Part shown: in pieces, positions 5,156 to 50,900 of the stretch
How the letters are laid out: each line of letters starts with the position of its first letter
Position numbering within the stretch: position 1 is the stretch's first letter
Source: Diplonema papillatum
Lineage: Eukaryota > Euglenozoa > Diplonemea > Diplonemida > Diplonemidae
Assembly (NCBI GenBank): GCA_030068145.1
Contig: JAPJBO010001131.1
Coordinates: 1-64,000 of the forward strand
Direction: 5' to 3'
Length of the DNA: 64,000 bases
The notes under the pieces: generated by a model
What the model was told of the DNA's origin: nothing
Seen by the model: only the letters and a program-made list of their open reading frames with translations
The model's database searches: none
Program-made: the position numbers and the translations under genes

Positions 5156-5232
5156 TCATGATCATTTGCCAAATTTGCCACCTGAAACCACGTCCAGGAT
5201 TTGGGCTCAGGGTAGTGCGGTCAACGAAAACC
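5104..5232 (+). repeat. Dispersed repeat family C, copy 1
   Basis: About 128 bp running from 'tagccacatgcaatgtgtga' to 'gtgcggtcaacgaaaa'. Near-identical copies lie at 13472-13598 and 20833-20960, and a partial copy at 5655-5705. This copy supplies the last codons and stop of the ALYREF-like frame. Confidence 0.85.
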
Positions 5233-5889
5233 ACTTCATGTAGGCAGCAGCAAGATTAGTAGCTTTCTGGCTTCACCTTTTTACTCCAACCATACGGCGC
5301 GCGGCAAGCAGAGCAGGAGCGGTGGACGAGAGTGACAGACACAAGCATAGGAGTGAGGATTTTATTACTTAGCCACATTGGCGCCGCTCAAGCGGCCACC
5401 TTAAGTCACTCGTTTGTTTGTAAAGATTGCTCCGTTCTTCTCCCTGACTTGTTACCGTGTGCTGTGGGACGTTTGAATCATTATACGGGCCGTCGACTGT
5501 CCAAATCCAGAAACCCACACCTGATTCGGATCCGGATGTCAGATCCGGACTCATTTGGTATGTGGGTTTCTGTGTACAGCCCAGGGAACGCGTGCGGGTT
5601 TCTCAAAACAAGGTTCCAAGGGCCCCGGATTAGGATGACACATACTACTACTACCACCTGCAACCACGTCCAGGATTTTGGGCTCAGGGTAGTGCGGTCA
5701 ACGAAAACTCTAGTTTCCCTTTCTACTTTCTCCTACTCTCGCGGTGTTACGCTGGCAGCGTGTTTGGGAGATGATTAGCCCAACGAACATATTCACTCAC
5801 TACCATTCACTGCATTCACTCAGGCTAATAATCCTCCGCCAGGCACGTACAAACAAAAACACGCCCATTCTTTTTTGCTATTAACACGT
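5233..5889. repeat. Repeat mosaic (D copy 2, C partial copy, dispersed segment)
   Basis: Family D recurs at 5378-5456, a 'ccggattaggatgaca' plus CTA segment at 5622-5655, and a partial family C at 5655-5705. Positions 5748-5850 ('gctggcagcgtgtttggg' ... 'caggctaat') recur at 39160-39240. No gene is recognised; the 148-codon frame at 5332-5778 runs through repeats. Confidence 0.65.
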
Positions 5890-6965: not shown

Positions 6966-7472
6966 CCCCCCCCCCACACGACAGCCACCAAAGAGAGTAA
7001 AAGAGTGAAAGAGGACGTACAGGAGTGAGTAGAAAAGAGAACGAGTGTAAAAGAAAGAAGGTAGCACGGGCTACCAGACCAGCGGAGACCACCGCAAAAA
7101 AGAAACCCCCTTGTTTCCTCACCTTATCCCACAAACCAGCACCAATAACAACGCCCCCCCTCCCACGACAGAGACGCGGGAGGCGAGAATACGAAGAGAA
7201 CTGCTGGATTCGGTCGCGCGGTCTCGCGGTATCGCAAGCCGGACTTGCCGGTTCGCGGCCGAGAGGAGCCTGAGAGGAAGGCATCCAGGGAGCCCGGCCG
7301 ACCCCGCGCCCACGAGCCGGAACAAAAGTATGGGTTCAACAACAAAATGTCAATTTCCCACTTACTTCCAACCTTCTCCTTTACCTTGCATCAAATAGGT
7401 GTCACGGCAAGTTTTGGCAGCCGCTGCTTAACAACTTCCTGGCACTTGCACTTTACCGCACTCGAAGCTTAA
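6966..7472. other. Low-complexity coding remnant, probable retroelement tail
   Basis: Frames at 7025-7273 and 7111-7398 encode Lys/Arg-rich protein without known domains. The segment 7395-7440 ('ggcagccgctgcttaac') matches tails at about 440 and 44990, so this is probably the 3' end of an old retroelement copy. Confidence 0.35.
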
Positions 7473-10302: not shown

Positions 10303-11768
10303 AGAAACAGAGGAAAAAGAAAAAAAAAATCACCGATTCAAGGTCGTTCCTTCCGGTGGTCAGGCTTGTTCAGGGGACAATCAGGCGTACCCAGACAGCC
10401 CAGGACCAGCAGGCTCACCTGGACAGGTCGTGCATTTTTTTCAAGGACCGGCAACAAAATTTGACGTGAACACGGCTACCGACGCGGGGGTCTTTTTGTC
10501 CAAGAAGGATATTGGACGAGAACCACTTCCATAGCACCCAACGAGGGAAGCTCTTCCGGCCGTATGAAACCTTGCCGTCAGCCCGCGACGAAGGTGTTGC
10601 AACGTTGTGAGGGAGCGTAGAGGTTTGTGTGTTGCCGCCAGTGCGTCATGCATGTTCGTTAGGAAATTATTGTATCGAAAGCATGTGGGCCTGTAGCCAG
10701 ACGTGGAGAAGGAATGGGCCTGCCAGGAACGTACCAGGAGCGCGTAACGCAAGAGAAGAACCGTTGTTCGAACACAAAACGTCGAAAGACACCAATCTGT
10801 ACGCCCATGCGGCATCGTAGGAAACACAAAAAAAGCTTGTAGCTTTTTCATCTTCGCCAGCTTGATGTCGCAAGACAACATTGCATAGGATGCAGCTGGG
10901 TGTCCTAGCTTTCGGCGGTCGTATTTGGTGTTTCCATCGAGCACGAAGCTGCAACGCCGATCCCTTGCGCAGGCGGGAATCCTTCGGGCGAGGAGGGAGG
11001 TGGAGACCAGCCAGCAGAAGCTGGGGTGAAAGAGGGTGTGTCCGAGTCACACCCGAAAAGCAGGCGGGACTCCACCAAGTATGAATGCAGCTTCACGAGC
11101 TCACGAAAAGCAGCAACTTGGTCTCGCTTCAAGTCTAAACCCAGCTCGCGTTCCGTTGTATTCGGTGAACGACCCTTCGACAATGCTGCTTGTCTCGGTG
11201 AGGAAGAGCCGACATCGAAGGATCGATAGCAACGTCGCTAGTGAACGCTTGACTGCCACAAGCCGGCTATCCCTGTGGTAAGCTTTCAGTTTCCGGCTGC
11301 GTCCCTTGAACAGTCGCGAGAGAGGTTACTGATGGTGAGAGACAGAAGGGAATTCTGCTTACTGGTCTGCTTTTGTTCGCTGGCGTAAAGTCTGCGAGAT
11401 ACTTGTTGGTACAGTGACTGCAAGAAAGAACGAAGAGAAATTAAACCATCAAGGGTAAGCCTATCGCCAGGGCTTACGCGGCTCTTTTGTCTTGGAGCTA
11501 AATACCTGCTGAAAATCAGTACGTAGGGTCAGGCAGAAAAGAAATAGAGCATAGGTCTCACCCACTCACCTGCCAGTGTTGCATGTCTTTGCCTCTGCCT
11601 CCTCTCCGGCCTCAACCCTCCAGTGTCGTGGTGGTAAGCAACAGCAGGATCTGCTGACCGGAATCCCCGGTACTGCGGTTGATTCCCCAGATGAATCTGC
11701 AGAGAAGATAGGACGTGCTGATAACGTACCGATTTCAGCACGTGCACACGTACTGATTCAGCATGTGT
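10303..11768. other. Unassigned region
   Basis: No confident gene. The longest frame is minus-strand 10441-10944 (167 codons), which overlaps plus-strand frames and has no recognised motif. A segment at 11036-11071 ('cgagtcacacccgaaaagc') recurs at 47208-47240. The (A)n at 10318-10330 may be the end of a small retroposon. Confidence 0.35.
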
Positions 11769-11851
11769 ACAAGAACACATTCGACGAAGGGCACCCGGAG
11801 ACTCTAAAATCCCGGATTCTCAAGCGAATTATAACTCTAAAATTAACGTGC
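11769..11851 (+). repeat. Dispersed tail repeat family G, copy
   Basis: A ~70-80 bp segment with 'cacattcgacgaagggcacc', 'cggagactctaaaat' and 'ctcaagcgaattataactct'. Related copies lie at 19628-19698, 29976-30045, 38037-38107, 44765-44817 and 55517-55570. It often follows retroelement coding remnants, so it is probably the 3' untranslated tail of one or more non-LTR families. Confidence 0.65.
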
Positions 11852-12135
11852 TGAAATCAGTACGCTCAGCATGCTGAACGTAAGGCCTGCCTATCGCGAA
11901 CATTGCGTAGGGGCAAGATGACAATACCCGTCCTGAGGACTTACGGAAATAAGCTTGTCTGGACAAGGTCACGGGGAAGGGAGGGTGGGGCTCCCTCTTC
12001 TCGTCCAACGACACCACCTGGTTCTTGGGCGGCTTGACGACTGCGCTGGTTCCGTCGAAACTCTGCTTTTAAGTATCCTTTTCGACTTCCCCTTCGTCCT
12101 GGACGAAGGAGGTGCGTTGCTAGAGAAGTCACAGC
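11852..12135. other. Unassigned spacer before the ATGCAT satellite
   Basis: No gene. Long frames on both strands continue into the satellite and are artefacts of its stop-free composition. Confidence 0.4.
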
Positions 12136-12590
12136 CATGCATAGCCGTATGCATACGCATGCATACGTATGCATACGCATGCATACGTATGCATAGCCGT
12201 ATGCATACGTATGCATAGCCGTATGCATAGCCGTATGCATACGCATGCATACGTATGCATACGCATGCATACGTATGCATGCGTATGCATACGTATGCAT
12301 AGCCGTATGCATACGCATGCATACGTATGCATAGCCGTATGCATACGCATGCATACGTATGCATACGCATGCATACGTATGCATAGCCGTATGCATACGC
12401 ATGCATACGTATGCATAGCCGTATGCATACGTATGCATACGTATGCATACGTATGCATACGTATGCATAGCCGTATGCATACGCATGCATACGTATGCAT
12501 AGCCGTATGCATACGCATGCATACGTATGCATAGCCGTATGCATACGCATGCATACGTATGCATAGCCGTATGCAGCGCCGTATGCGTAT
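12136..12590. repeat. Palindromic ATGCAT satellite (~455 bp)
   Basis: An uninterrupted array built from 'atgcat' alternating with 'acgc', 'acgt' and 'agccgt' linkers. Many units are perfect palindromes, such as 'atgcatacgtatgcat', so both strands read alike and the tract could form cruciforms. The tract keeps several frames open on both strands, producing spurious Met-His-Thr-Tyr-rich proteins up to 291 residues. A degenerate end continues to about 12640. Confidence 0.93.
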
Positions 12591-12640
12591 GCGTATGCAG
12601 GTTTGGGTGCATAGGCGTGTGCAGCCGTATGCAGCCACCA

Positions 12641-13471
12641 CAGCCCTAGCCAGCCCGGATCATACCCGCACGTGTGATTTCGGAGCGGCACACTTCGTGT
12701 GGCTACACCACATATTCCTCCTTTTGAGATGTCGCAACTGGCAAGCCTCCTCCAGTATTTCCTACAAAGCAGGTGCTTTGAAAAAGAAATACTCGACGTA
12801 GCTGCTTTGTTCTTCGCTTGCACCACCGTGTGTTGTTTTCTCACTCAGGACTTTGAGCTGTCGTGTTTGTGTGACTACCGCATCGAAAACAAATAAAAAG
12901 ACCCCATCCCGTCTCAACCGACTGACCAAAAAAAAGAGGGGGAAAAAGCACAAAGAAAAAAACGGCGAATCAAGTTGCGTTTTTGTTCGAGCGATCTCAT
13001 TCGCCAGAGAGCAACTCACCGAGGGGGTGTGTGTGTGTGTGTTCGTGTTTTCTCCACTTGCCCTCTCATTATTTGATCGGCCACAGTCGCAGCGGCGCGC
13101 CGAAGAATCTGCAGACGACCGTCCCTGCATATCGGGTAATGGATAGGTGTGAAGGTCTGGGAGCTGAACATGTGCAAGAGGGGGAGATGCTCCGTTAGGC
13201 TATACCCGCCATCCGTTTTTTTTTGTCGTATAAGATCGCAGATCTTAGAAGATTCATATATCCGACGAATACCTAACACTCGTTACAAGGTTAAATAACC
13301 CCGTCGCTATCCCGAACACATCGTAACTTCACCCCTCGCTTTTGAGACGATTGTGACAGGCACACCGAATCACTGCCTGACCTTTCTACTTTCGATTTAT
13401 GCATCATCCACGACGGTGAAGACGAAGCAGCATACGGAGCCAGTATACGCAGTAGGAGGAGGATGTATTAT
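12641..13471. repeat. B/B' retroposon pieces and unassigned sequence
   Basis: 12745-12783 is the 3' end of family B' and 12789-12876 the 5' part of family B, both plus strand. A GT run lies at 13026-13045. Positions 13216-13290 ('agatcgcagatcttagaag') recur near 43826-43880. No gene is recognised. Confidence 0.5.
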
Positions 13472-13598: not shown

Positions 13599-13724
13599 AC
13601 AATTCCCTTCCCTCATTGTGATAACCAGGAACCACCTCCTTAGCGAGCATACTTATTACAGCTAAAAAGGAACGCTGGCAGCGGTTTGACATGACGCGTA
13701 CAGGTCAAATTGCACAAACAAAAA

Positions 13725-14317
13725 ACGATGTCCCCACTGCCACACACGCACAACAACCACCGGCATCAAACTGAAGGGAAAACAAGGATTACGGACGCAC
13801 CTACGTTACTGCAAGAAAACCACCCAGAACTAAGTCAGAAGCAGAAACAACGCTGCGAAGCACCACCCAGAAACGAGAGAGATGTCCCTACTGCCACAGC
13901 GACGGACGAACCGTGGGGAAACCACTCTCAAAAGTCTACGCCACCATAAGCCCTGGTGCAAAAAGAAGCACTGTAAACGACGCACAGCAACGACGACTCC
14001 ATCAGACGAATAACCTCACTAACCACGGGTACCCAGAGTGCCTCAACTGTGGCGAGCAACGAACAGTTTTACCCTGCAAATCTACCCAAAAAAGAAACCT
14101 TATATTAGGCGGAAACAACCCGCACCACATGACGCGCCGCAAGCGTCACGAAACCCAAGCACTCCTCTACGAGAAAATACATAAAAACGCGGACAACAGA
14201 CCGGTACGGGCTACAAGGCAACCCCCTGCTCAACTTGTAGAACGTGGGGGGCCCAAGACTACACTCCACGAAGGAATGGACTTGGTGTCAGTCACAAACA
14301 GTCCCGGACATGGCTAG
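13725..14317 (+). pseudogene. Decayed copy of the C2H2 zinc-finger retroelement ORF
   Basis: This is a broken relative of the 3' half of the element at 28.0-29.9 kb. Three fingers can be traced: CPHCHTRTTTTG...KGKQGLRTHLRYC from about 13730, CPYCHSDGRTVGKPL from about 13870, and ECLNCGEQRTV from about 14036. One base is missing after 'GKPL' compared with the 29.48-kb copy, so the second finger is split over two frames. The following sequence to 14317 corresponds to 29.7-29.9 kb, including the segment about polypyrimidine 'ctcaacttgta'. It cannot make an intact protein. Confidence 0.7.
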
Positions 14318-14397
14318 CCATAGCCCAGAACGAAAGCGTGCACCAAATATACACCAAATATACAACCCGTAACCATATGCACGGTGGATAGGGTACT

Positions 14398-19604: not shown

Positions 19605-19627
19605 AGCCTTTTCTTGCTCTAAGAGAA

Positions 19628-19698
19628 CCCATTCATGAACGGTCACACGGAGACCCTAAACCCCCGGAATTTTAAGCGTACTTTAACTCTAAAAAATG
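19628..19698 (+). repeat. Family G tail, copy
   Basis: Contains 'cattcatgaacggtcacacg' and 'cggagaccctaaac', matching 38037-38107 closely; the preceding 'ccttttcttgctctaagaga' is shared too. Confidence 0.7.
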
Positions 19699-21520: not shown

Positions 21521-21782
21521 GCACGAAAAAGCGGATCTGGCGCTTCCTTTGTTTGTGCGCACTTACGGTACAAAATTGGGTCATGTGCAAAAGCCGATAT
21601 GAAAGCGTATCTTCTGAAACAAACATCTTCCCGCCCCGAAATCGTAGCGGTGTGGCTGGTGGCCACTGTGACGGGCAAGTCTACTCACTGCACAGGCCGG
21701 TGTTTGGGTTCGGAAAGTGGTCTCAAAACAAGACACTCGTTGCTCGGGCCAACGACTATAAAGGAAGGACACGAACTGCGTG

Positions 21783-24700
21783 ATGCGCATTGCTGCTTTG
21801 GAAGAGGCCCTGCTCAACGAAAGGTTAGAGCGCGCGGCTGCGAGCGTCCGAAAAGCGCTCGACACCGAGCGGCGGCCTCGTCTTGCCAACGACGTGGACC
21901 ACACGTACGATGACAAGTATCGTCTGATGGAGTTCGTAATGAGCGCCGCCGTGCAGTCCTTGCAGGCACCGCTTGCGGGCTTGGGCATCTGGAAAGGCGA
22001 CACTTGGCAGACGCTGCAGCAGTGGGCCGCCAGCGGCCAACGGGTGACTCTGCGGCTCGCTGCAAGCGAAATGTGCGCTTTCGACAAAGAGACGAAGAGG
22101 GACGAAGTGGTGTCTTCCGCTTCCGGATCCTTCGTCGGATCGTTGGTGTCGCGATCAGTGGTTACGGCAGTGACTGAGTACTGGTGGGACGTCTCTGTGC
22201 GGTTCGGGTTGTCGATCTACCGCGGGTCGGATCCGGAGGATTGCATTGATGTTTTCTCAACGAAAACAGACGCACCGAGTGTCCGATCTCGAGCTGGAGC
22301 TGGCAGCGCAGAAGGCGCGCCGAAGGAAAGCATCGGTGGCACGCAGACCGAACGCACGGATCCTGCAACCGCAGACAGTTCGTCGCCTGGCGTCGGCGGT
22401 CACCTTGACCGGCGTTTGAAAGTGCTGACGCGAACGAGGGACTCACCCAGATCAGAACGTCGGGAGAGGGATGCGCGAGAGGTAGACCTGACGTGGCTTC
22501 TGAAGGGCACCGACGAGACGTCTGCTGAGTTCAGGATTGACAGGGACGGCCCTCAATGCAGGACGCCGCGGCGCAATCCTGAAGTCGACGAGGCAGTCGC
22601 CTTCTTCGAGAGTCTGAGCGGTTGGTGCACCGGAGTGACAGACGAGTTCTTCTTCGGCGACCTTGTAATGCTCGCGAAGGAAGGTGTCGAAGCAAGCAGC
22701 GCGGCACACGCGAAAGACCGCTTGAGCGTGCCCCGACAGCTGACCAGATTCCTGGACGCTCTCGGTTGTGATCTGGGGCCGAGTGTCCTCCCCGTGGCTC
22801 CTGTCTTTGACGATCGTCGAAACGGTGTGAACAGCGGCACATTGCAACCAATCGAAGGGAATAATCCTTCGGAGACGACTGATGACGGCACGCAAAGCAC
22901 GAAGCTGCTGACCGCTGACGATGTCGGGACGCTGACGAGGGAGCAGCGGAGACAAATGCTCGAGCGTATCAAGAAAAGCGAACGAGCATTCGTATCTTCG
23001 CACTATGCCGACGTGGCGACAGGTGTCGACGATGCTGCGTTTTTTACACCCGAAGATGCAGAGCTTGTTGTGACGGTGCTGCATGTTTTAGATGTTTGCG
23101 AAGCGGTGATCGCGTCGGCGAACTACGTCGAGATGCTGCTTCGGAATCAGCTACTGCGTGTGGTGGGAAGTGAAGTATCGGGGAGTGACGTGTCCCGCCG
23201 AATGGCACTTCGCTGGCGGTCGTTGTTCAAAGACGAGTACCGGCCGAAGCCAGCTTGCTTCGCTGTTGGCTGCGAGGGGGGCGATGCGGACGGGTTCGTC
23301 GAGTTGAGAGACAGCAAAGGGAACGGCCTGATCGATGTTTTCACGAGAGAAGTCGGGGTGGAGGGAATGCGGTTCGAGTTGAACGCGTCGGTCACAGTGG
23401 AGATCGAGGGACGAACGTTCTTGCACACGTTCTTGAGACAAAAGTTCGCCGAAGGCGCCGACTGCGCAGGAAACGAAGATGGTGACTTGACGTTGAGGCT
23501 GTCGTCGAAGCCTCTGACAGGATACGTTGCGGTGCTGGGCAGAATCGGCGGGACACGGTTGTTCCTGCCAAGCCACGCATTGATTGTGCGTGATGGGTTT
23601 AGTGTCAGCATTCCGTTGACGCTCGACGAAGTTCCCTCAGCGCGGGAGTTCAGGGACGCGACTGCGGCTCTTTCGCCGGAGCAGCGTCGATTCGCCGAAG
23701 CCTTCCGCGCCATGCAGTTGGAGGCTACTCTGTTTGGCGTCCTCGTTGCGCCGATCATGCCGCAGTTGGAAGCTGCGCTCTACCTCCCTCCGCAGTCCCT
23801 CACCCGAGATCTCAGTCTGAGACATGATCTGGTCGAGACGTTCGCTGACAGTCAGATACCGGTGGACCTGCTAGCATTTGACGAGGTGTCAACTGCTGCG
23901 CACGGCACAGCGGGCGTGCTGCCCGCTGCCACTCCTGCACAAACGAAGGAGTCGGACAAGGTGGCCGCAGTGCGGCAGAATCTGAACGCCGTGAACACGT
24001 ATGTCACCGCGCGCAAAGTGGAGGAAGCTCTGGAAAATCTCGCACGGGCGGAAGAGGGGGCGCGGCGAGCCGTCGAGGCACTTGAGTCCTTCGCCTTCGT
24101 GGGATACGCAGCTCCCTACCTCATAGGACGGGGCGCAGCGTTGCGCGCGGAACGGAAAGTAAAGCTGACCGAGGAGCTTCACTTCCAGTGCGACCGAATT
24201 CTCGAGAGAGGAGAGACAATCGACATGCTTTGGGAGAAAAGTTCCGGCCTGGAGGAGCTGGCGGTGCATTTCCAAGCCAAGTCAAAATCATTGCATCGGA
24301 AGAGTGTCTTCAGCAACGTGCGAGCACCATTTTCGGTCAAGTCAACGCCGCGTTCAAGCCGGTCCAGTGCACACCAACCGGCCAACGCGTGTTCGACAGC
24401 AGATACGGCCGATGTGAAATGTGCGAACAGCTTCGAAGAGGCACCCAGTGAACCCGCGGCTGTTGCGCACTCCCAAGAGACCCAAGGCATCGAGGCTGCT
24501 GCAGACGGCATAACAGCGGGTGAGGAGCACCCCTCCGTCACAAACGATGGAGATCCTGCACCGGAAGATGACCCCCCCGATACAAACGTTGGCGAAGTTG
24601 TCACAAGCGACTCGTGCAGCGCGAAGCCACCGTCAGCTGTGTTCGATCTTCCATCGGTACCTCGGTTGCTGGAGGAAGCAACCGATGCGCTAGGACCAAC

Positions 24701-25085
24701 CGTAAACGTTCGTCCTGTCATTGTCAAAGTGGGCACTTCGTGGCGGGCGTCCGAACTGGAGGCCACGACGCTTCCAGGATCAACCAGACGGCCAGGGCAG
24801 CCAGATCCCGGCTTCCGGAAAAAAGCAGACTGGCAGCGAGCGGAGAAGAACAAGGCGTTCGACCTTATAGACGCCGTGACGCGGTCAGGCAGTGCCCAGT
24901 TAAAGAAGGGGACAATGCACGTGTTCGTCGGCGGTGCGCACTGCTTCGACACATCGGTTGTCGATGCAGTTGTCGTCCACAACGTCGACCCTATCGAGCG
25001 CATTGACGCAGCCTGCATTGCCACCGTTGCAGCCCTCCACGACCAACCAGCCTCCTTCATCCGGACAACCACGCACTTATCCTGA
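21783..25085 (+). CDS. Large conserved protein of unknown function (1100 aa)
   Basis: A single intact ORF, by far the longest in this part. I place the start at the ATG at 21783; the frame extends one GTG codon further upstream, and a TATA-like 'gactataaagg' lies about 30 bp upstream. No catalytic motif or membrane segment is seen. The order of blocks resembles a family of large uncharacterised proteins that I recall from stramenopiles and other microalgae: an N-terminal segment with RLMEFVMSAAVQS and VTLRLAASE (residues ~40-110), DLTWLLKG then TPRRNPEVDEAVAFF (~235-275), and LSPEQRRFAEAFRAMQLEA followed by IMPQLEAALYLPP (~625-680). Residues ~850-950 are Ser/Pro/acidic and probably disordered. 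Helical, charged segments at ~720-830 could form coiled coil. Role and location are unknown. That the ORF survives intact amid repeats argues it is under selection. Confidence 0.82.
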   Translation: MRIAALEEALLNERLERAAASVRKALDTERRPRLANDVDHTYDDKYRLMEFVMSAAVQSLQAPLAGLGIWKGDTWQTLQQWAASGQRVTLRLAASEMCAFDKETKRDEVVSSASGSFVGSLVSRSVVTAVTEYWWDVSVRFGLSIYRGSDPEDCIDVFSTKTDAPSVRSRAGAGSAEGAPKESIGGTQTERTDPATADSSSPGVGGHLDRRLKVLTRTRDSPRSERRERDAREVDLTWLLKGTDETSAEFRIDRDGPQCRTPRRNPEVDEAVAFFESLSGWCTGVTDEFFFGDLVMLAKEGVEASSAAHAKDRLSVPRQLTRFLDALGCDLGPSVLPVAPVFDDRRNGVNSGTLQPIEGNNPSETTDDGTQSTKLLTADDVGTLTREQRRQMLERIKKSERAFVSSHYADVATGVDDAAFFTPEDAELVVTVLHVLDVCEAVIASANYVEMLLRNQLLRVVGSEVSGSDVSRRMALRWRSLFKDEYRPKPACFAVGCEGGDADGFVELRDSKGNGLIDVFTREVGVEGMRFELNASVTVEIEGRTFLHTFLRQKFAEGADCAGNEDGDLTLRLSSKPLTGYVAVLGRIGGTRLFLPSHALIVRDGFSVSIPLTLDEVPSAREFRDATAALSPEQRRFAEAFRAMQLEATLFGVLVAPIMPQLEAALYLPPQSLTRDLSLRHDLVETFADSQIPVDLLAFDEVSTAAHGTAGVLPAATPAQTKESDKVAAVRQNLNAVNTYVTARKVEEALENLARAEEGARRAVEALESFAFVGYAAPYLIGRGAALRAERKVKLTEELHFQCDRILERGETIDMLWEKSSGLEELAVHFQAKSKSLHRKSVFSNVRAPFSVKSTPRSSRSSAHQPANACSTADTADVKCANSFEEAPSEPAAVAHSQETQGIEAAADGITAGEEHPSVTNDGDPAPEDDPPDTNVGEVVTSDSCSAKPPSAVFDLPSVPRLLEEATDALGPTVNVRPVIVKVGTSWRASELEATTLPGSTRRPGQPDPGFRKKADWQRAEKNKAFDLIDAVTRSGSAQLKKGTMHVFVGGAHCFDTSVVDAVVVHNVDPIERIDAACIATVAALHDQPASFIRTTTHLS

Positions 25086-27543: not shown

Positions 27544-28027
27544 CGCATGCAACAGATACGATTTGAATCCCCCTTCCTGGCCTCCCTACACCTAGCAAAC
27601 GCACGTCAAGTTGGACTCCCAACATCCCGAAAGAAACGGACACAGCACAGACCCCACCGCCACGGTTAGCCACGTTTTTGTGTTAACAATGCATTGTTGG
27701 TACTAAAAATCTGTAGTTGGCAGCGTACTACATGAAACTTGCCAAAGCAGGTGTGTTCCGCTAGTGCGCACAAACAAAAGAAATCGTCACTACTAATTTT
27801 TTTTGATCTTCCCTTCCCCCCCCCACAGCACCACACAAGCGTGACAAATAGAACGTGCGATTGCCTTGGTGTTATTCTTACTTTCCCGACCGTTTGCTTG
27901 CAGTCTTCAGCCAGAGCTACAGCTGAAGAGTGTACAACCCGACGTGATGGGAAGTTGAAGCAAAGCGCTGCAAACACGCAGACCCCATAAAGCTGTTTAA
28001 CCACTGAGCGGACGAACGACGTGTAGG
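27544..28027. other. Unassigned spacer
   Basis: No gene recognised; contains a poly-C run at about 27820 and an upstream flank for the USP-like element. Confidence 0.35.
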
Positions 28028-29895
28028 TTGTGCAAAACCTGGACCTCCTGCTCTTGTCCGCTGCCTCTCAGCCCCCCTTCCGGGGATCGCCGCCTTGTAG
28101 CGCTGCGGGCCCTCTTCTTTCTCGCGACTGCGCGGCCTACGGCGGCGGCTAACACCTTGATGGGCAACTTCAGCCAAACACTCTCAAAGCTCGCACGGTT
28201 CACTACAACAAACTCCTGCTTCCTTCAAGCCGCGTTGAACCTCGCCGCCACCGACATGGCCCAACAAGTGGTTACATACAACGAATGTGCATCGCACTCG
28301 AAGGGCGATTGTACGGCAGCCGTAAGCGATTGGGTTCCAGGAAGACGGACGCAAGCGACACTCCTGCATGTTTTCGCCAGCATCGAGCCCCTTCGGGGAC
28401 GGGCAGCAGTGTGATCTCGGGGAAGTCCTTCGTGCAATCACTGAACGAAAACGCAGCGCACCAAGCTTGTCAACAGAATCGGCAAGACGCATTCGTCGGC
28501 CTCCAGCACAACATCACAACTACCACAACCTGCAAACAATGCAGCCACTCCAAGTCCAACTCACCGGAAACCCAAGACATTACGTACCTTCCACCAGGCG
28601 GCAATTCGATACAGAGATGTCTGTACCTCTGGAGCACACCCTAACCGTCGACTACAAATGTGAAGCTTGCAAACACACCAACACCACTTTGACAAGACCT
28701 TGCTACCAACACATCAACACAATGCTGCTTATCCAACTTCAAAGGGCACGCAAAAACGACACAACAAACCGCACCGCCATACACGCAGACCACACCATCA
28801 CACTCCCAGGACGTAACGCCCCCCTCAATCTAAGAGCGATAGCCGTACACTCCGGCCACAACAATGCAGGCCACTACGTCATCCACGCCCTCAACGAGTC
28901 TGCAGACGCAGGCCAACGATGGTCATGTTTCGACGGTGTTCGGACGCACCACACAACGGCCCCGACGTACTCCAGGAACGAGATTTTCCTCTGCGTCTAC
29001 CAGCCTCAAGACGTCCAAGTAATGGAGGTCCCCCCACCAGTCTTCTTACCATTCAACGACCACAAAACTACACCCACCTCGCCGATAACCATGTCTGCAG
29101 ACGCGGGTTTAACCCAGGACCTCTTAGACGCCATACGAGAGACGAATTATCCGCCACTCAAACTGGAACGCAGCTCGACGAGCACACCGCCGCCGACAAC
29201 AGCAGAGCCACCACACCTACAAGTATAAACACCCCGCAAAGCACCACCTCTACCACGGAACCAGAATCTAGCAGCGACGACGACTTGCAATGCCCCTACT
29301 GCCACGCACGAACAACGGCAGCCGGACATCTTTTTAAAGGAAAGCAGGGACTGCGCGTGCACCATCGGTTCTGCAAAGAAAGACCACCAACGGTTCAACT
29401 AGATTACACACTGCAAGGTCCCGCGAAGAAACGAGACAGATGCCCATATTGCAACAGCGACGGACGAACAGTGGGGAAACCACTTTTCACAAGTCTACGC
29501 CATCATGAGCCCTGGTGCAAAAAGAAACACAAAGCAAAGCGACGCGCTACCTCTAAGAAACCGACGGACGAAAAACTAGATACACCACGGGTACCCAGTG
29601 TGCCCAGAGTGCCCTAACTGTGGCGAGCAACGAACAGTGCAAATACTTATCTTCTAAAAAAATTCAATTCCGAGAGCGACGACGTCACGCACTTCGAAAA
29701 GCGCAACGTTCGTTTCTACCCGCAAACCTCTCTGAGCTATTCTACACTCTTCTCTACGTAGAGCCATGGTGCGAACAATGGACCGGTACGGTTTACAGGG
29801 CAACTCCTGCTCAACTTGTAAGACGTGGGGAGCCCAAGAGCACTCACCTATCCTGGCGAGAACTTGGTGTCGGTCACAAACTGTTTCGAACCTGA
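28028..29895 (+). pseudogene. Mobile-element ORF: USP-like protease plus C2H2 zinc fingers, frame-broken
   Basis: Three frames in series encode one protein. Frame 1 (28028-28414) has NSCFLQAALN (Cys codon at 28217), the active-site Cys box of ubiquitin-specific proteases (family C19). The middle section lies in another frame (about 28440-28600): QQNRQDAFVGLQ, then CKQCSHSKSNS. A third (28620-29228) has DYKCEACKHTN and IQLQRARKND, then HSGHNNAGHYVIHALN with the catalytic His box (His codon about 28872) and WSCFDG. A last shift leads to the frame ending at 29617, with two fingers CPYC...GLRVHHRFC (from 29291) and CPYC...SLRHHEPWC (from 29441); a third, CPNCGEQ, starts near 29608. Family G tail follows at 29976. 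At least three frameshifts, or unrecognised splicing, separate the parts. USPs remove ubiquitin; within an element this would be accessory. A similar zinc-finger half occurs at 13.7-14.3 kb, supporting dispersal. Confidence 0.65.
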
Positions 29896-29975
29896 CTCGC
29901 CTAAGCGAGCAAATAAAGTGTACACGAAAGAATGCCCCCCCCAAAACCCACCCAGTACGTATTAGCTTTAAAAGA

Positions 29976-30045
29976 ACCCATTCGACGAAGGTCACCCGGA
30001 GATTCTAAAAACCCGGATTCTCAAGCGACCTATAACTCTGAAAAA
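29976..30045 (+). repeat. Family G tail after the USP/zinc-finger element
   Basis: Contains 'cccattcgacgaaggtcacc', 'cggagattctaaaaa' and 'ctcaagcgacctataactct'. Its place 80 bp beyond the zinc-finger ORF suggests it is that element's 3' untranslated end. Confidence 0.6.
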
Positions 30046-30212
30046 CCCTGGCCGGTACCAGTCGAAGGGGAACAATAGGTATTTTGGCCATTATGCCAAA
30101 CTAACGAGAAAGGAGTTCAAGTACACAGTGGACCGGACCGCGTCTTCGACTTGTCAGTTGTCGACAGCCAACCTTGCGGTCTAGTAGTTTACATAAGGGC
30201 CCTTGAACTCTA

Positions 30213-33300: not shown

Positions 33301-36300
33301 GCATCGCCACGCGGTTAAACGTCAGCTTCGAGCTGACCTTCTTCTCGCCCAGTTGAAAGACTGTTCCAGTCGTCATCTCGGTGCGGGTTCCGCGCCTGAC
33401 GACGACCGAGCACATCTGCCCTGCTTGGCCAGCTAATCCTGGCAACGCGGCCAGCACGACGACTGCACACGCCTCTTTCCGCTTGCCGTCGCCGATGGCC
33501 TTCTTGGCTTCCGAGCGGCTCGCGAAAGCCTCCCGCTTCGTCACAACTCCGCAGTTTCGACAAGTCGACGACTGGAACATCCCAGTCTTCGCTTCGCAGC
33601 TGCGCGGGTTGACGTTCTCTCTTTGCTGGCGCCCACTGCCATGGGGCCTCCGTCCCGGTCTGCGTCGGCCGCATAGCCTCATCAGAGGCAGTGCGTTGCC
33701 CGGGACCACCGCTTGGATGTGCAGACATGTTGTTGGTGAATCGTTTAATTTAGAGATTTTCTTTTTCTCCCAGTCCCCTTCTTGTTGCGTTGGTGGGGAG
33801 TCATTTGCATGCAAATGAGCACCACACTATGCCAGCTTTTCGCTACGTGACTCCAGAAGCAAAAATCACAAGAAAATTGTTCTAAATCACCAAAAATCAG
33901 CAAAACTCGTCTTCTTGTTGCGTTAGTGGGGAGTCATTTGCATGCAAATGAGTACCACGCTAACTAGCAAAAATCACGCGAAATCACAACAGATCACATG
34001 GCAGCCCATGATAATTTGTGATTCTCCCCGTCGACCCGATGACCATGACCACCCCAACTTCATACGATTCAACCCAACAGTGGCCGGAGCTGTCCACGAA
34101 ATCGGGCACGTCATGGGACTGGAGCACGAGCACACCCGGAGCGACAGAGACAACTACGTACGCATAGACCTTGATCAGTTCAGTTCGGACATGAAGCGGA
34201 GTATGGAGAAAGTACCTGACTTCCGCAACATCGGGGTATACGACTACGCCAGCATCATGCACTACTTTGCACATGCCTGGTCTGTTACCGGCTTGCCGAC
34301 CATCGTGACGACGGAAGTCGTTGGGGAGCACAGTGGTGGCTTGTCCGACGGTGACGTTGCCGCTATTGACTTCATGTACAACGGGTGTTCGAACACGTAT
34401 GCTGCGCCCAGGTGCATTACGAACGCGACGGCGGCTCTCTTGATTCCTCATTCGAAGGATTTCGTGGTCGAGTTCAATGCGGACTGGAACGCCGATTCTT
34501 CGATGACGATAAGCTACGGGTCCACCACTGCCTCGGGTGCTATCTTCCACACCGCGTCAGGAACAAATGTTGGCTACAGCGCAACAGAGTTCATCACGTT
34601 GAACCCGTCGCCCTCGGACGCGGGCAGCACTTTCGTGTTGGCGGCCACGTTCACTTCGACTGGTGCCGGCGCTGAGTCGAGCACGTGCCAAGTTGAGGTT
34701 AAAGTCGCAACAGGGGACCGCGTATGCTTCGGAATCTCGGCAGATGATGAGTCTGTCTGCGGTGGCGGTGGTGGAACGTGCACATCCGACTCCGGGATTC
34801 CCTGTCTGTGCACCGGAAAACACACCGGGAAGCAATGCGAAGAGCATACTTGCAAGTCTCAAACCGGTCCCACTTCACCGCCTTGCTATGAGTACCTGAT
34901 GCATGGCAGCTTGACTCGTCCCACGCCTGAAGATCTGATTGATGGAGGTCTGACGTTGACAGTCACCATTGCAGGCGGGGATGCCTGGGTTGACTCGGAG
35001 GCAACGAAACAAGCATTTATTGACGGTCTGACGGCTGACGCTTCTCCTTTGTCAAGTGGGTGGAGCGAGTTGAAGTCGACGATGGTGAACACGGGGTTGG
35101 TGACAATTTCGGGGTCCACGTTGATCCTGGGTCCTTTGAGGCCGGCAGCGTATCGCACGACAACTCCAAACGTTGTCTCGTTGGCTTTGGATGCCAGCAT
35201 GGTGACCAGCGGCACCCTGGGTGTTGGCAGCGACGATTTGTTCTTCGTCATTCCCGCGTCTTACTTTCCGACGTGCCCTGTGGGCGAGAGGCTGACGTTT
35301 GATTCCAGCTCATCGCCTTTCCCCTTTAGCGTTGTCGACACGTCGTTCAGCGTGGACGGAGGCGGCTCGGCGTACTTCGGCAGGCCGGAAGGTTCTTTAT
35401 CATACAGCTTTTTCAGTCTCCCGACTCCCGATGTATACACCAGCATCTCCTACTACGTTGCTATCGACGACACCGCTTCTCTTCCTGGCATTGACATCGT
35501 CCGTGGCGTCCAATCATGCTGGAGGATGAAGATCGCAACAACGGGGCTTATGTTTTCTTCTGATACCGATACTTTCGTCGACATGCACATGGAGGTCAAG
35601 CGCTTTTACTTTGTGGAGCACGTGATCGACTACTCCACTGGTATGATGACAGTCCGTGTGGACGGAGAGGTCAAGATCGAGAACGTCGCGAGCGCAAGCG
35701 ATCCGAATTGCGGCAGTGAGGGCTTCGATGCTGTCATCTTCTTGAACAAAGGCTGGCTCGACGAACTGCACGTGCAGCCGGCATGCCAAGGGTACGAACT
35801 GACAGGCACGCTGACGTCGCCCGTTCAGAGTGAGTTCGTGAATGGGGGTCTGATGCTAACCGTCAGCATAAAAGGCGGAGCCGCGTGGGTTGACACAGAG
35901 GCAACCAAGCAAGCATTCATTGACGGCCTGGTTGCAGACAGTTCCTCGACGGCGGCGACTGGGTGGAACGCGCTGAAGTCGACGATAATGGACACGTCCT
36001 TGGTGAGAATCGTGGGATCGAAGATGACGCTCGGTCCTTTGAGACCGGCGTCCTCGTTCTTCGAGCGAAGTTCCACGACTGTCTTCGTGGCGCTGAAGGC
36101 TAGCATGGTGGACAGTGGGTCACTGGGTGTAGGCAGCGGTGATATGTACTTCGTCCTTTCCTCGATGCCAACGCCGATTCCAACGCCAATGGCCACACCG
36201 TCATGCGCTGTTCATGAAGGGGCCACGTTTGATTTTGGGTCAGCTTCATTCCCCCACTCTGTAGTTGACACGTCTTTCAGCGCGGAAGGCAGTGGATCGG

Positions 36301-37601
36301 CGTACTTTGGTGGACCGGATGGGGCCCCGTCCTACAGCATTTTCACATCGGTTCTCGAGAAATACACGTCCGTCTCTTACCACATTGCCATGAGCGACAC
36401 CGCATCTCCTCCCGGCATCGACATTCTCCAAACCGACCACGGTTCGTGTTGGACGATGTATCTGACATCAACGGGGCTAGATTTTTTATCGATTACCCAC
36501 GTTAACGTCGACATGCCTCTCGAGCTGAATCGTTTCTACTTTGTGGAGCACCTGATCGACTACTCTACTGGTATGATGACAGTTCTTGTGGACGGAGTGG
36601 TCAAGATCGAGAACTTCGCGAGCAGAAGCGCTTCCACTTGCATCCGTGACGGCATCAAAAGCGTCGTCTTCTTGAGAAAAGGTTGGCTCGACGAACTGCG
36701 GCTGCAGCGGCCCTGCTTGCAGTACGAAATGACCGGCCCGATGGCATCTCCCCGTTACAGTGAGTTGGTTGGGGGGGGTCTGACGCTCACAGTCAGCATC
36801 GGAGGGGACCTGGAGGTGTGGGCTGACACAGAGGCAACCAAGCAAGCATTCATTGACGGCCTGGTTGCAGACAGTTCCTCGACGGCGCTAACTGGGTGGA
36901 ACGCGCTGAAGTCGACAATGATGGACACGTCCTTGGTTAGCATTTCGGGATCGGAGATGACGCTCGGTCCTTTGACACCGGCAGCTTCGTTCTTCGAGGA
37001 AACTTCCACGGTTGTCTCGTTGACGCTGGAGGATAGCATGGTGGCCGGGGGAACACTGGACGCACTTGGCCTCGACTTGAAGTTCGTCATCCCAGCTTCT
37101 TTGGTTTGTCTTGCAAGCGAAAGGGAGACCTTCGACGAAGTTTCCACAGCATTCCCTGGCTCTGTAGTTGACACGGCCATCAGGGCAGTGGGTGCAGGTT
37201 CTGCGTTGTTTAACGGGCCGTACAGTATTTATTCGGCGGCGACCTCGAAGCAAGTTTCGAGTATCTCGTTCTACTTGGCCCGGCGCGTGGCCAGTAGCAC
37301 TCCCGGCTTCGACATTTTGGATGAAAATTGGATCAGTTGCTGGCACATGTACGTGTCGAGCACGGAAGTTAGGTTCACGTCGGACACCACTGCCAGTGCA
37401 CCGCTGACCGTCGAACTGGAGGAGTTTCACTTTTTCGAACTCCTCTTCGACTATTCCAGCGAAACGACGACCGTTCGCGTGGATGGGCAGGTCAAGTTCG
37501 AGCACGCAGCGAAAGCGGGGTCCACCTGCTTCAGCGGTGGCTCCAGGCACTTCGTCTTCTTGGCCGAAGGATGGCTTGATGAATTCCAGCTGCAGTGCTA
37601 G
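30370..37601 (+). CDS. Secreted astacin metalloprotease with EGF-like and tandem modules, gene 1 (two exons)
   Basis: Exon 1 is 30370-30799; exon 2 is 34081-37601; joining them across GT(30800)...AG(34080) restores frame and gives 1316 residues. Residues 1-16 look like a signal peptide. Residues ~55-215 form an astacin zinc endopeptidase domain: NYVI and DWEAKTCIRF early, HEIGHVMGLEHEHTRSDRD at 149-167 (zinc His 149, 153, 159; catalytic Glu 150) and Met-turn SIMHY at 201-205. A Cys-rich EGF-like segment follows (CFGIS...CLCTGKHTGKQC). The rest is three copies of a pair: a ~100-residue unit (GGLTLTV...WVDSEATKQAFIDGL...LTLGPL) and a ~150-residue LamG/jellyroll-like unit (VVDTSF...GSAYF...YFVEHLIDYSTGMMTV...GWLDEL). 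Substrate is unknown. The inferred job is extracellular processing, with the C-terminal modules binding wall or matrix. Confidence 0.85.
30800..34080 (+). other. 3.3-kb intron of astacin gene 1
   Basis: Donor 'g|gtatgcac' and acceptor 'caacccaacag|tgg'. The equivalent intron in the paralogue is 506 bp and starts 'gtatgtgc', at the same codon and phase. The excess length is largely the antisense LINE fragment (31171-33814). Direct repeats of ~50 bp ('cttgttgcgttggtggggag', with the palindrome 'atttgcatgcaaat') lie at 33779-33829 and 33912-33961, next to the element's 5' side. Confidence 0.8.
31171..33814 (-). mobile_element. Antisense non-LTR retrotransposon fragment inside the intron
   Basis: Minus-strand frames run in order: 33814-33041 (257 codons, with a TCRNCGV zinc-type motif), 33004-32018 (328 codons; KTWDVFGFSRR...KVIPKRGKTLAVVRG...PPAWVFGV, then a coiled coil EVEQLHAQLNEALRRTEDL and a Lys/Arg-rich end), then a broken frame (31906-31461, EEMAQYLQRMG...LNAATQVLKCG). 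The last frame (31638-31171) reads GITVATVNVTSYRKHYLDVA, which resembles the start of an AP-type endonuclease domain of LINE ORF2 proteins. It stops at 31171, so most of the endonuclease and all reverse transcriptase are absent. Plus-strand frames here are shadows. Family assignment is inference from layout and the endonuclease-like start. Confidence 0.55.
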
Positions 37602-43331: not shown

Positions 43332-45007
43332 GACATGAGACATTTAGGTTTTACATTTTTTCCGTTGAGCGCAGTACCTGATCGTTTTTTATCTCCCTGT
43401 CTTGTTCCCGGCTTAGGACGACACATAATACTATTGTGCAGTCTATCGTCACAGATTTTTGCTGCATATCAAGTTCAAACTGCTACTACTACTACGTTGA
43501 ACGCAGTGCCTGATACGGGTTTTAAGTAAAGCTGCAAGTGAAAACGCCACGGTTTGCGGCGACGAGCTTCTCATTTCCTCCAACGTTTCATGTTTGGTAA
43601 AAAAGAAAATCGCATCTCTTTGATTCCGCTCGATTACTGGACGAGGGGAGACTCGTCCCTGCCTGAAGGAACCTACCACCCCCGGGTGGGCTAGTCGGAC
43701 ACAAGTTAACACACAGGAAAAAAAGGAAGCAAAAATTCCAACCCCCACCCGCATGAAATGCCTCCCGATCCAGTTTGTGTGACCAGCCCGTCTGAGCACA
43801 ACTGGGCGCTTCTTGTTTCCGCCGAGGTCGGCAAAGATCGCAGATTTCAGAAGATTATAACATGTCCCGACGAACACCCAGCACTTGTACACCCCCCCAT
43901 GTATTGGGCAACAACCAGGAACACACTGGTAGGAGCAGCGACACCTCCTGAAAGTGAGCCAAGGGCGAAGGACGTATCTGCGGCTGCTGCGGCAGTTGCC
44001 CGGTGGCAACCCCACACGCAGAACGCGGGGAAGGGGAACGCGTTTCCCAACTACACTGAAACCCCTTCCCGACCGTAGCATCCGAGGAAGGTGCAAACAT
44101 GGGTGCGACGGTAGCCGTGCACGGGTCTTGGGCGCGTGCCTCGTGCAGGGCGGGTGCTTTGTGATCCGCCGCGAAGATCTCTGCTGGTGCAATCCGTCGA
44201 GTTTCGGCTCACAGCCGGTTCCCTCGGGCGGCAACCCTAAGGGAGAGAGAGCGCCAGACACAATCCATCTTAAACAGAACCACACACACAACATACATGT
44301 AGGCACGTGGGGCGGCCCAGGGCAACATTCATTGCGAATGTGTTCGTGTTGTCGGTCACAGGAGTTTTTTGCCGTATAAGATCGAAGATCTTACAAGAAA
44401 AATAAATAAAATTTTTTTTCTAGCAGCAAACAGTTCACACATAAACTACAGCTAGGTCTACAACCAGTTGCTGAGTTTTCACCACTACTACTACACCTGC
44501 TGTTGCCAAACCTTCTCTTTCTACTACCCGACCCTCCCCACCGCACGTCCTCCTCAACCTAAAAGAAAGTAAGAACGCATATTACAGACCGATACGAGCT
44601 GCATGGCAACCCCTGCTCAACATGCATGCGCGTGGGGGGCCCAAGGCTAAATTCAAAGCGAATTTCTTCTTGGTGTCGGTCGCAACACTTACAAACATGG
44701 CTAGCCGTAGTTAAAGTGTATAAGCATACCTACTACCCTCATACCACCCGCCTCACAGCCTCAATGGTCAACCGGAGACCCTAAAACACCGAACCTCTAA
44801 ACCACAATAAACGCTAAATACTAGTCCGACGAGAACTAACACTTGTACAAAGGTTATTATCACCCCATCGCTCCCGAGAAAAACACCGTAATTTTACCCC
44901 TCGCTTGCCCACCCACCCTTTCCCATTTTTTCGCAGCAATCGAAAAGAAAACAAAAGAGCGTTTTACCACCTTGCGCGGTGTCACGGGATGTTTGGCAGC
45001 CGCTGGC
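43332..45007. other. Repeat remnants and unassigned GC-rich segment
   Basis: 43391-43500 resembles the family D end plus 'cagtctatcgtcacagattt' seen again at 47050-47150. 43826-43880 matches 13216-13290. The frames at 43758-44379 (plus) and 43449-44306 (minus, 285 codons) overlap and show no known domain. 44571-44712 is the decayed 3' part of the zinc-finger element ('gcaacccctgctcaacatgc', compare 29790-29880). 44765-44817 is a family G tail. Confidence 0.45.
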
Positions 45008-47981: not shown

Positions 47982-50900
47982 ATGCTGCGTTTGTGTCTCG
48001 CGCTGGCGATGCTCAGCGCCGCTGAAGGCCGGAAGTTGATGGGAGATCCGGACGACGTTTTGGCGAATGCCGTCGAGGAGCCGAAGGTGTCCACGGTGTT
48101 CACGCGGCATGCCAACCCACTGGGAGGCGGCGTGGCGAGATCGCGGCTGTGGGACCAGGGGAAGGTGAACTACGTCATCAGCACGCCGGTGTCGAGCCCA
48201 GGCTCCATCTTCCCGCACCTTGCCGAGGACGACCAACGCGTCTTCGGCGCCATGGCGCACTGGGAGGAGAAGACCTGCATCCGGTTCACAAGATGCCCCA
48301 CTGCAGCCGACTGCCCGCAGCCGTACGTGCTTTTCAGAGGATCGAAAGAGATTTGCGCGTCCGCGATGGGTCAGGAGTCTGGCATCAACCACATTGAATT
48401 GCACTCGGGGTGCACCGGTATGTGCTAAAGTTTGCTGCTTGCAGTACCCCCACTGACGCGTCTTGTGCATGTGCGCAGGTTCAATCATCATCTGACTCTC
48501 TCTGTTTGCGGTTGCAACCTTCGGTACCACGAGTTTGCCATTCTTATGTCAAACTCTCCAATTCCCTCTTGGGTTTTGGTTTGGGCAAGAAGTATTCGCG
48601 CCCGCCATCTCCGACGACCTCCTGTCGCTACCTGTGTCAAACCGTGTCAACCTGTACCTTTCAGTCTGTCGTTCCTTCTCAGCCTCTATCTTCGTCTTCG
48701 GGACATAGCCAAACCTGGGACCGCTTTGCGCAAGGTAGGGCCGTATTAGCGTAGCCCCCTCCCCGCCTTCGCCAAGGCCGGCTGCAGGGAAAGTGGTCGC
48801 CACAAAGGAAGTACCCCGAATTTCCCCGAATTTCCCCCGAACCTTCCCGATACTCCCCGATATTTTCGTCTGGACCAGGTGGTGTAGTCTAGAAAACTGA
48901 AAACGATACACCCCACACCGCAGTTATCGCAGCGATCCACGAGATTGGGCACAGCATGGGGCTGTACCATGAGATGTCTCGGAGTGACAGGGACAACTAC
49001 ATACGCTTAGATTTCGACCAAATCAAGTGGGCGTGGAGAAGCCAATACGACCTAGGCAGCGACGTCCGCAACATTGGAATGTACGACTACGCCAGCATCA
49101 TGCACTACGGTGCAGGTTCTTTTGCGATCGGCGACCTGCCGAGCGTCATCACGACGGAAGTCATCGGGGACCACAGAGGTGGCTTGTCTAAAGGTGACAT
49201 TGCCGTCATTGACTTCATGTACAACGGGTGTTCGAACACGTATGCTGCGCCCAGGTGCATTACGAACGCGTCGACCATTCACTTGATTCCTCATTCGAAG
49301 GATTTCGTGGTCGAGTTCAATGCGGACTGGAACGCCGATTCTTCGATGACGATAAGCTACGGGTCCACCAACGCCTCGGGTGCTAATTTCCACAACGCGT
49401 CAGGAACAAATGTTGGCTACAGCGCAACAGAGTTCATCACGTTGAACCCGTCGCCCTCGGACGCGGGCAGCACTTTCGTGTTGGCGGCCACGTTCACTTC
49501 GACTGGTGCCGGCGCTGAGTCGAGCACGTGCCAAGTTGAGGTTAAAGTCGCAACAGGGGACCGCGTATGCTTCGGAATCTCGGCAGATGATGAGGCTGTC
49601 TGCGGTGGCGGTGGTGGAACGTGCACATCCGACTCCGGGATTCCCTGTCTGTGCACCGGACAGCACACCGGGAAACAGTGCGAAGAGCATCCTTGCAAGT
49701 CTCAAGACGACGCCACTTCACCGCCTTGCTATGAGTACCTGATGCATGGCAGCTTGACTCGTCCCACGCCTGAAGATCTGATTGATGGAGGTCTGATGTT
49801 GACAGTCAGCATTGCAGGCGGGGATGTCTGGGTTGACTCGGAAGCAACCAAACAAGCATTTGTTGACGGTCTGACAGCTGCCGATGCCTCTCCTTCGCCT
49901 ACTGGGTGGAACGCGTTGAAGTCGACGATGGTGAACACGGAGTTGGTGACCATTTCTGGGTCGACGTTGACTCTAGGTCCCTTGAGGGCGGCAGGCTCGT
50001 TTTTCACAACAGTTCCAACGGTTGTCTCGTTGGCTTTGGATGGCAGCATGGTGACCAGTGGCGTTATGGGTTTTGGCAGCGCTGACTTGTTCTTTGTCGT
50101 TCCCCCATCTTTTACGTGCCCTGAGGGCATAAAGGTGACGTTTGATACCGACCCAAGCTTCTTTGACAACACGAAACTTGACACGGATTTCAAGGTTGAG
50201 GGCGCAGGCTCGGCATACTTTCCTATGAAAGAAGGTTCTCCCCATGGCTTTACTGTAGAGCTGTATGGCGACTTGTACACCAGCATCTCTTACTACATTG
50301 CAATGAACGACACGGAAAATCTTCCCAGCGTGGACTTTGTCCACGCGGACCCCGTCCAAGACGGTCTTTTATCATGCTGGAAGATTGCCGTCGCAGCGAC
50401 CGGGCTAACCTTCGTTGCGGGTACCGTTACTTCTTCCGTCGACATGCCTCTCGAGCTGAATCGCTTTTACTTTGTGGAGCACCTGATCGACTACTCCACT
50501 GGTATGATGACAGTTCGGGTAGACGGAGAGGTCAAGATCGAGAACTTCGCGAGCAGGAGCGGTTCCACTTGCCTCGCTGACGGCATCTATCGCATCATCT
50601 TCTTGAGAAGAGGTTGGCTCGACGAATTCCGGCTGGAGCTGCCCTGTCCCCTGTACGAAATGACAGGCACGCTGACATCACCCGTTCAAAGGGAGTTGGT
50701 TGCTGGGGGTCTGATGCTAACCGTCAGCACATATGACGACGTGTGGGTTGACACAGAGGCAACCAAGCAAGCTTTGATTGACGGCCTGGTTGCAGACAGT
50801 TCCTCGACGGCGCTGACTGGGTGGAACGCGCTGAAGTCGACGATGATGGACACGTCCTTGGTTAGCATTTCGGGATCGAAGTTGACACTCGGTCCTTTGA

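Follow-up and report, generated by a model that had tools for sequence, protein, structure and literature searches.

In the diplonemid Diplonema papillatum, a ubiquitin-specific protease (C19/USP) domain is carried by eight families of multicopy elements (A1 to A3 and B to F), in seven of which a reverse transcriptase (RT) was seen in the same open frame. Judged by domain layout and motifs, this lineage very probably consists of USP-carrying retroelements of the Penelope-like kind (Penelope-like elements, PLEs). Our starting point was a family-B copy in the window, that is, the whole 64,000-nucleotide stretch analysed here (contig JAPJBO010001131.1 of assembly GCA_030068145.1). An earlier note made from the letters of this DNA had proposed a mobile-element frame joining a C19/USP-like protease to zinc fingers, which open frames and profile scores bear out, and had placed it at 28028–29895; genomic matches instead put the element portion at 28172–30045.

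A truncated family-B copy in the window

The stretch at 28172–30045 (+) is a frame-broken, 5'-truncated copy of a multicopy retroelement; it begins at the start of all full matches and ends where copies share their 3' end (30043–30046). When window positions 28000–29960 were compared with the 271 Mb assembly, at least 52 matching pieces were found, its own included, with the best 40 of 2,487 candidates scored. The common 3' end recurs in 26 of the 29 loci that were fetched and set against the window; loci L021 and L042 end before it, and the match in L038 runs off the end of the sequence retrieved. Flanks differ among the 23 tabulated 3' ends, except for the identical flanks of L017–L020, which are probably duplicates of one locus, and 11 other tabulated family-B copies begin at varied internal points, from 28232 to 29421. 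A variable start with a fixed 3' end is the pattern of 5' truncation. Relative to L017, to which it is 96.4% identical by BLAST, the window copy has eight deletions over 28172–30045, and the length of seven of these is not divisible by three.

The order read in the earlier note, namely Cys box, C-x2-C pairs, His box, WSCFDG and fingers, is present in full between 28202 and 29518 on the forward strand. The Cys box TTTNSCFLQAALN lies at 28202–28240, the QQxD box FGDGQQCDLGEVL at 28392–28430, the two Cys pairs at 28531–28548 and 28659–28673, and the His box VHSGHNNAGHYVIHALN at 28845–28895; the catalytic Cys, the Q and D of the second box, the Cys pairs and the GH of the His box are kept in all nine aligned sequences, and the third catalytic residue, the Asp of RWSCFDG (28917–28937), is kept in eight of nine and is Asn in family E. 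The continuous reading claimed for these boxes exists in other copies only, as here they are spread over several frames. An open frame at 28326–29228 (+), which contains the second half of the USP, reaches 24.6 bits with the Pfam UCH profile (cut-off 23.9 bits), and the window frame containing the Cys box, scored alone, gave no profile match. Two fingers stand of the "two or three" C2H2 fingers proposed, at 29291–29374, aligning with the A1 and A2 finger, and at 29441–29518, found in families B to F and absent in A; they are not classical C2H2 fingers but follow C-x2-C...H-x4-C spacing with Cys as the final ligand (C2HC).

Several observations concern insertion sites. Three family-B insertions (L035, L041 and L037) have one flanking motif in common, AGCAGGTGCTTATACAAAAA, at or close to their 5' junctions, which hints at a preferred target. 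Several other family-B copies adjoin A-runs, and A copies end at C-runs; an insertion bias for microsatellites is a trait of PLEs with an N-terminal endonuclease. At L046, an 18S rRNA fragment (3237–3499, minus strand, 65 bits) ends three bases before the family-B copy starts at 3502, a junction that may have arisen by integration next to rRNA or by a template switch at the 5' end; a 774-aa open frame (24–2345) lies upstream of the same copy. At L012, a 456-base A2 3' piece (5130–5585) is repeated inverted at 6434–6889, 849 bases downstream, with 99.8% identity.

The surroundings show other features. A 1,107-aa open frame at 21762–25082 adjoins the element, long open frames at 33927–37598 and 48893–52429 contain HExxHxxGxxH and by eye have the look of astacin-type metalloproteases, and a tandem repeat at 11944–12844 (−) encodes repetitive frames rich in His, Ala, Tyr and Cys (HAYAYGYAY-like). 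A 20-mer that we take to be the diplonemid spliced leader occurs 624 times in the assembly, against 0 for its reversed control, and the cox1-like sequence found is fragmentary and scores under the cut-off. A 28S rRNA fragment at 11115–11314 (−; Rfam, 101.5 bits) agrees with the scattered 28S pieces of D. papillatum, whose genome, according to its published description, spans about 280 Mb, with some 3,600 pieces of 28S scattered through it and rDNA clusters dispersed at 13 places (PMC10161547). Against those 13 published clusters, we found the 18S stretch in at least 40 places on many contigs among the best 40 of 247 candidates.

Domain architecture of the longer copies

A single open frame of the longer copies encodes a GIY-YIG endonuclease, a CxC motif, an RT, the C19/USP domain and zinc fingers, so that the linked RT for which the note had advised a search was found in the frame itself. 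Intact frames measure 1,562, 1,585 and at least 1,889 aa. The 1,562-aa protein of A1 combines GIY-YIG (22.9 bits), CxC, RT, UCH (82.2 bits, E 5.7e-23) and one finger, and the 1,585-aa protein of A2 matches GIY-YIG with 22.4 bits and UCH with 74.4 bits. In family B, the frame of longer copies extends upstream into the RT (for example, frames of 969 and 974 aa) and then into GIY-YIG; in the C77 copy it runs unbroken from 37799 to 32133 (no fewer than 1,889 aa, and 1,904 aa in the genome search) and encodes GIY-YIG, CxC, RT, USP and two fingers behind an N-terminus rich in Pro and Thr. In copy L046, the endonuclease is not in the frame of the RT. The RT frame also runs into the USP frame in C (one copy), D, E and F.

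Copy numbers were gathered from genome-wide searches. Among the best 149 of 935 candidates scored with the UCH profile, all above cut-off and host USPs among them, A1 (85.3–85.9 bits) accounts for at least 54 places and A2 (76.5 bits) for at least 41, assigned by score alone and possibly including redundant contigs; with the same proviso on contigs, the 1,562-aa frame occurs at no fewer than 13 places and the 1,585-aa frame at no fewer than 12. Two A1 copies are 99.9% identical across 5,353 bases, and two A2 copies have a sharp 5' end and a 3' end in common, with different flanks, which sets the element length at about 6.5 kb. Family A3 has a USP 78% identical to that of A1, and the frame read there, covering the USP region only, has no finger. 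A search with the RT yielded at least 98 matches among the best 98 of 664 candidates, with 58 to 100% identity and frames of up to 2,762 aa, including a 2,210-aa frame common to at least 13 places. At five of the RT-search places, representing families C (two copies), D, E and F, the 3' part encodes a UCH domain above cut-off (35.6–62.1 bits) and two fingers in every case. A single fortuitous capture of a USP is ruled out by the presence of the module in eight families.

Only A1 passes the Pfam GIY-YIG cut-off of 22.6 bits, B scoring 18.8 bits, and the motif residues align in A1, A2 and B; the CxC motif lies between endonuclease and RT in all five families whose sequence was read there, A1, A2, B, C and E. 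In the RT, KLHK and GIPMG-type motifs were recognized by eye, RVT_1 matched four of seven members below cut-off (best E 0.0096), a group II RT profile gave a sub-threshold match (E 0.0073), and single-sequence and profile searches of the PDB with the element RT returned nothing. No hammerhead ribozyme was found with Rfam at gathering score in the window or in seven element loci, and no pseudo-LTR in the one A2 copy examined. N-terminal-endonuclease PLEs, reportedly described by Craig et al. in 2021 as Naiad and Chlamys, have a CxC motif between the endonuclease and an RT of PLE/telomerase type with an insertion-in-fingers domain, lack the canonical hammerhead ribozyme, and form pseudo-LTRs and tandem or inverted partial copies. 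An N-terminal GIY-YIG and CxC beside the RT thus point to Penelope-like elements rather than a conventional LINE.

The USP domain: active site, selection and origin

C19 similarity, without which the earlier proposal would have failed, is significant: all eight families exceed the UCH cut-off, with 80.7 bits in A3, 62.1 in F, 53.4 in E, 48.7 in C, 36.1 in B and 35.6 in D besides the A1 and A2 values above. A1 to A3 have canonical USP boxes, and the Cys box of B to F is divergent. The position five residues before the catalytic Cys, which we take from USP7 to be that of the oxyanion Asn, is occupied by Asn in A1, by Ser in F and by Thr in the four families B to E.

Ratios of non-synonymous to synonymous change (dN/dS, Nei–Gojobori) in the USP are 0.117 for A1/A2, 0.177 and 0.179 for A1/A3, 0.141 for B/C, 0.158 for B/D, 0.236 for B/E, 0.309 for E/F and 0.079 between the two C copies (C/Cb); synonymous change is saturated in C/D and D/F and dS exceeds 1 in most other between-family pairs, which makes the values rough. 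Young pairs within A1 give 0.29–0.32 from few changes. For comparison, the RT gives 0.053 in A1/A2, the linker 0.607, with 0.260 for the tail, in A1/A2 and 0.20–0.95 in pairs of B to F, and the fingers 0.10–0.30, apart from 1.2 in C/Cb with few changes. The linker ratio is higher than that of the USP in all six pairs for which both could be computed. On these ratios, the USP is under purifying selection, and chance resemblance to USPs is ruled out by the UCH E-values together with dN/dS. From its sequence, the domain is probably an active deubiquitinase or a protease of a ubiquitin-like modifier.

With a profile built from A1, A2 and two B copies, whole-domain matches to USP12 (1e-16) and USP36 (1.9e-16) are obtained. 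A profile of B to F scores A1 at 53.7, A3 at 42.5 and A2 at 41.0 bits, and the best of nine host USP loci at 36.9 bits; with a profile of A, the B to F and host USPs are intermixed. The shared order RT–USP–finger and a first finger that can be aligned across A1, A2 and B to F would make a single USP acquisition before the A/B split the simplest reading.

A pseudoknotted RNA in the 3' UTR

The 3' UTR of the window copy contains, at 29777–29888 (+), a conserved RNA of about 110 bases with a pseudoknot, recognized by family comparison, covariation and a covariance model. It is common to families A, B, C and F, and is kept between families whose RTs are 37–39% identical. The fold is closed by a stem of 9 bp and also contains a hairpin and a 7-bp stem, the loop of which forms a pseudoknot with a G-run lying downstream.

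Covariation was assessed in nine of 22 distinct sequences, those lacking part of the stretch being excluded and near-duplicates kept. Paired cells amount to 94.2% against 88.2% in shuffled alignments, cells changed on both sides to 18 against 6.3, pairs with a change on both sides to seven against 3.8 (as high in two of 500 shuffles), and the covariation measure to 0.253 against 0.142 (none of 500); further pair types are not in excess (12 against 12.2; 378 of 500). The 7-bp stem and pseudoknot are paired in all nine sequences and the hairpin in 79% of cells. When the structure is slid along the alignment, 27–48% of cells pair, a control that favours the structure because it was drawn from one of the nine sequences.

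A covariance model run over 31 sources also found the RNA in C (two copies), in F and in two remnants of the window. It found none in ten other loci (L001–L008, L048 and L058), and in D and E, searched unfiltered over 756 and 1,071 bases of 3' sequence, no match reached an E-value under 0.8. An HDV-like ribozyme was considered for this RNA and is not claimed, with no conserved first-stem partner visible by eye and no Rfam match of any kind at E up to 5. We infer that the element protein recognizes the RNA at the onset of reverse transcription; the shared pseudoknot is a concrete candidate for self-RNA recognition by such RTs.

The same window holds further remnants, all on the forward strand. 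The decayed zinc-finger copy that the note had seen at 13.7 kb is a real remnant (13702–14347, about 72% DNA identity) with fingers and a 3' UTR, the RNA lying at 14195–14306, but looks like an older copy of a sister family, C. Likewise, the 3' remnant reported at 44.6 kb is genuine and belongs to sister families: the RNA at 44583–44694 matches the model over its full length, and 44586–44684 is nearly the same as family F and 88% identical to the A1 3' UTR. A partial RNA lies at 44273–44370 (36.1 bits, E 1.4e-8; DNA match 44295–44371). We also found 3' ends of A1 at 6988–7164 (86.6%) and of family B at 11768–11842 and 19616–19696 (89% and 79% to the window copy). A weak match to the RNA model lies at 418–519 (19.4 bits, E 0.0023).

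Proposed mechanism and alternative explanations

The reading we favour, with some reservation, is that of a truncated copy of an N-terminal GIY-YIG Penelope-like retroelement whose protein ends in a USP and C2HC fingers, the USP being a cis-acting deubiquitinase. In such an element, the GIY-YIG endonuclease would nick DNA, and the RT would recognize the 3' RNA structure and then copy the element RNA from the nick. The USP would act in cis to remove ubiquitin or a ubiquitin-like modifier. Its target would be either the element's own protein–RNA complex, whose very long protein would thereby escape the proteasome, or the proteins of chromatin and repair at the nick, and the fingers may tether the USP module to RNA or DNA. 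To protect the element's own complex in cis would be its single likeliest role, with chromatin or repair targets close behind. The domain make-up suggests that these elements may tamper with the cell's ubiquitin system to spread, and we infer, as the earlier note did, a part in countering host ubiquitin control. In favour of this explanation are the RT, USP and fingers in one frame, the GIY-YIG and CxC motifs, UCH above cut-off in all eight families, the whole-domain match to USP12, the conserved catalytic boxes, USP ratios of dN/dS below those of the linkers, the near-identical intact copies and the covarying 3'-UTR RNA; against it are the sub-threshold RT with no PDB match, a GIY-YIG above cut-off in A1 only, oxyanion Thr or Ser in B to F, dS above 1 in most comparisons, no pseudo-LTR in one A2 copy and an RNA not found in D and E.

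The oxyanion replacements lead to an alternative that we consider unlikely, in which catalysis has been lost, at least in B to F, and the domain has become a binding module for ubiquitin or a protein like it, with docking on ubiquitinated histones or PCNA as one conceivable use. The divergent Cys box and the Asn for Asp in E would fit; the catalytic Cys and His, however, persist in nine of nine sequences although other parts diverge strongly, and the boxes of A1 to A3 are canonical. We think it quite unlikely that the fold is a polyprotein-processing protease with no ubiquitin role, one that, like the papain-like proteases of viruses, releases RT, endonuclease and fingers by cleaving the element protein. 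Single frames of up to 2,762 aa, a position at the RT–finger junction and conserved Cys, His and Asp agree with such a protease, but the match spans whole USP domains, including the Cys pairs, in a fold known to recognize folded ubiquitin.

Other alternatives concern the element itself. That RT and USP define a separate class, Penelope-like in layout only, seems improbable: the RT is above no curated profile cut-off and no pseudo-LTR was seen in the one A2 copy, yet the N-terminal GIY-YIG, CxC and the KLHK and GIPMG-type RT motifs, as well as the inverted 3' copies, fit N-terminal-endonuclease PLEs. A host USP gene or pseudogene outside any element is practically untenable. Host USP genes do top the genome-wide UCH search, but they are weakly similar to the element USP, and the 52 or more matching pieces with variable 5' and fixed 3' ends, together with RT and GIY-YIG in the same frame, refute this explanation; the single-copy host gene that the note had named as fatal to its proposal fails likewise, the copies being multicopy with open frames.

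Returning to the favoured cis-acting deubiquitinase, a broader claim, for and against which we see the balance as even, is that Penelope-like elements of diplonemids have radiated into eight families or more, near-identical intact copies being present in several of them, and depend on an active deubiquitinase of their own (or, in B to F, a protease of a ubiquitin-like modifier) that acts in cis on the retrotransposition complex, and that in several families a pseudoknotted 3'-UTR RNA tag lets the protein recognize its own RNA; these would be the first USP retroelements known. If true, a ubiquitin-system enzyme would sit inside the working protein of a telomerase-related retroelement class, under selection across deep family divergence, offering one molecule with which to test whether mobile elements need to counter or use ubiquitin at integration, and diplonemids would join the hosts of Penelope-like elements.

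Comparison with known systems

The closest parallel is with the N-terminal-endonuclease PLEs Naiad and Chlamys, which share the N-terminal GIY-YIG, CxC, RT, inverted partial copies and a hammerhead not found; the diplonemid elements add a C-terminal USP and fingers and, in B, a Pro/Thr-rich N-terminus, and a pseudo-LTR was not seen in the one A2 copy. Among host enzymes, USP12/USP46 and USP36 are alike in the whole-domain profile match, the Cys, His and Asp boxes and the Cys pairs, and the element USP differs in its low identity, its place inside a retroelement and the Thr or Ser for the oxyanion Asn in B to F. Canonical Penelope/Poseidon elements, as far as the accessible part of their description goes, likewise join RT and GIY-YIG in one frame, but have the endonuclease at the opposite end and no USP; their hammerhead and pseudo-LTR were not found here (PMC11167929).

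Among the papers listed in a literature search that covered published main texts, including few subscription papers, none describes a USP in a PLE or in any other kind of retroelement; among possible relatives in IMG/VR, 21 pattern matches were found, none confirmed. The words 'Penelope' and 'ubiquitin' are absent from the main text of the D. papillatum genome paper (PMC10161547). The planarian giant Gypsy element Burro is also a retroelement with ubiquitination-linked domains; it is an LTR element with MATH/TRAF-type domains, and the available portion of its report does not mention a USP (PMC6431247). According to a further report, DNA transposons, Ginger1 included, may carry OTU or Ulp1 domains, and a Trichomonas protein joins transposase_11 to peptidase C19, so that C19 in a mobile element has a DNA-transposon precedent (PMC2836005). 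Like the diplonemid elements, Ginger1 and the Trichomonas protein fuse a ubiquitin- or SUMO-type protease, C19 in Trichomonas and OTU or Ulp1 in Ginger1, to a mobile-element enzyme, with the difference that theirs is a DNA transposase without RT.
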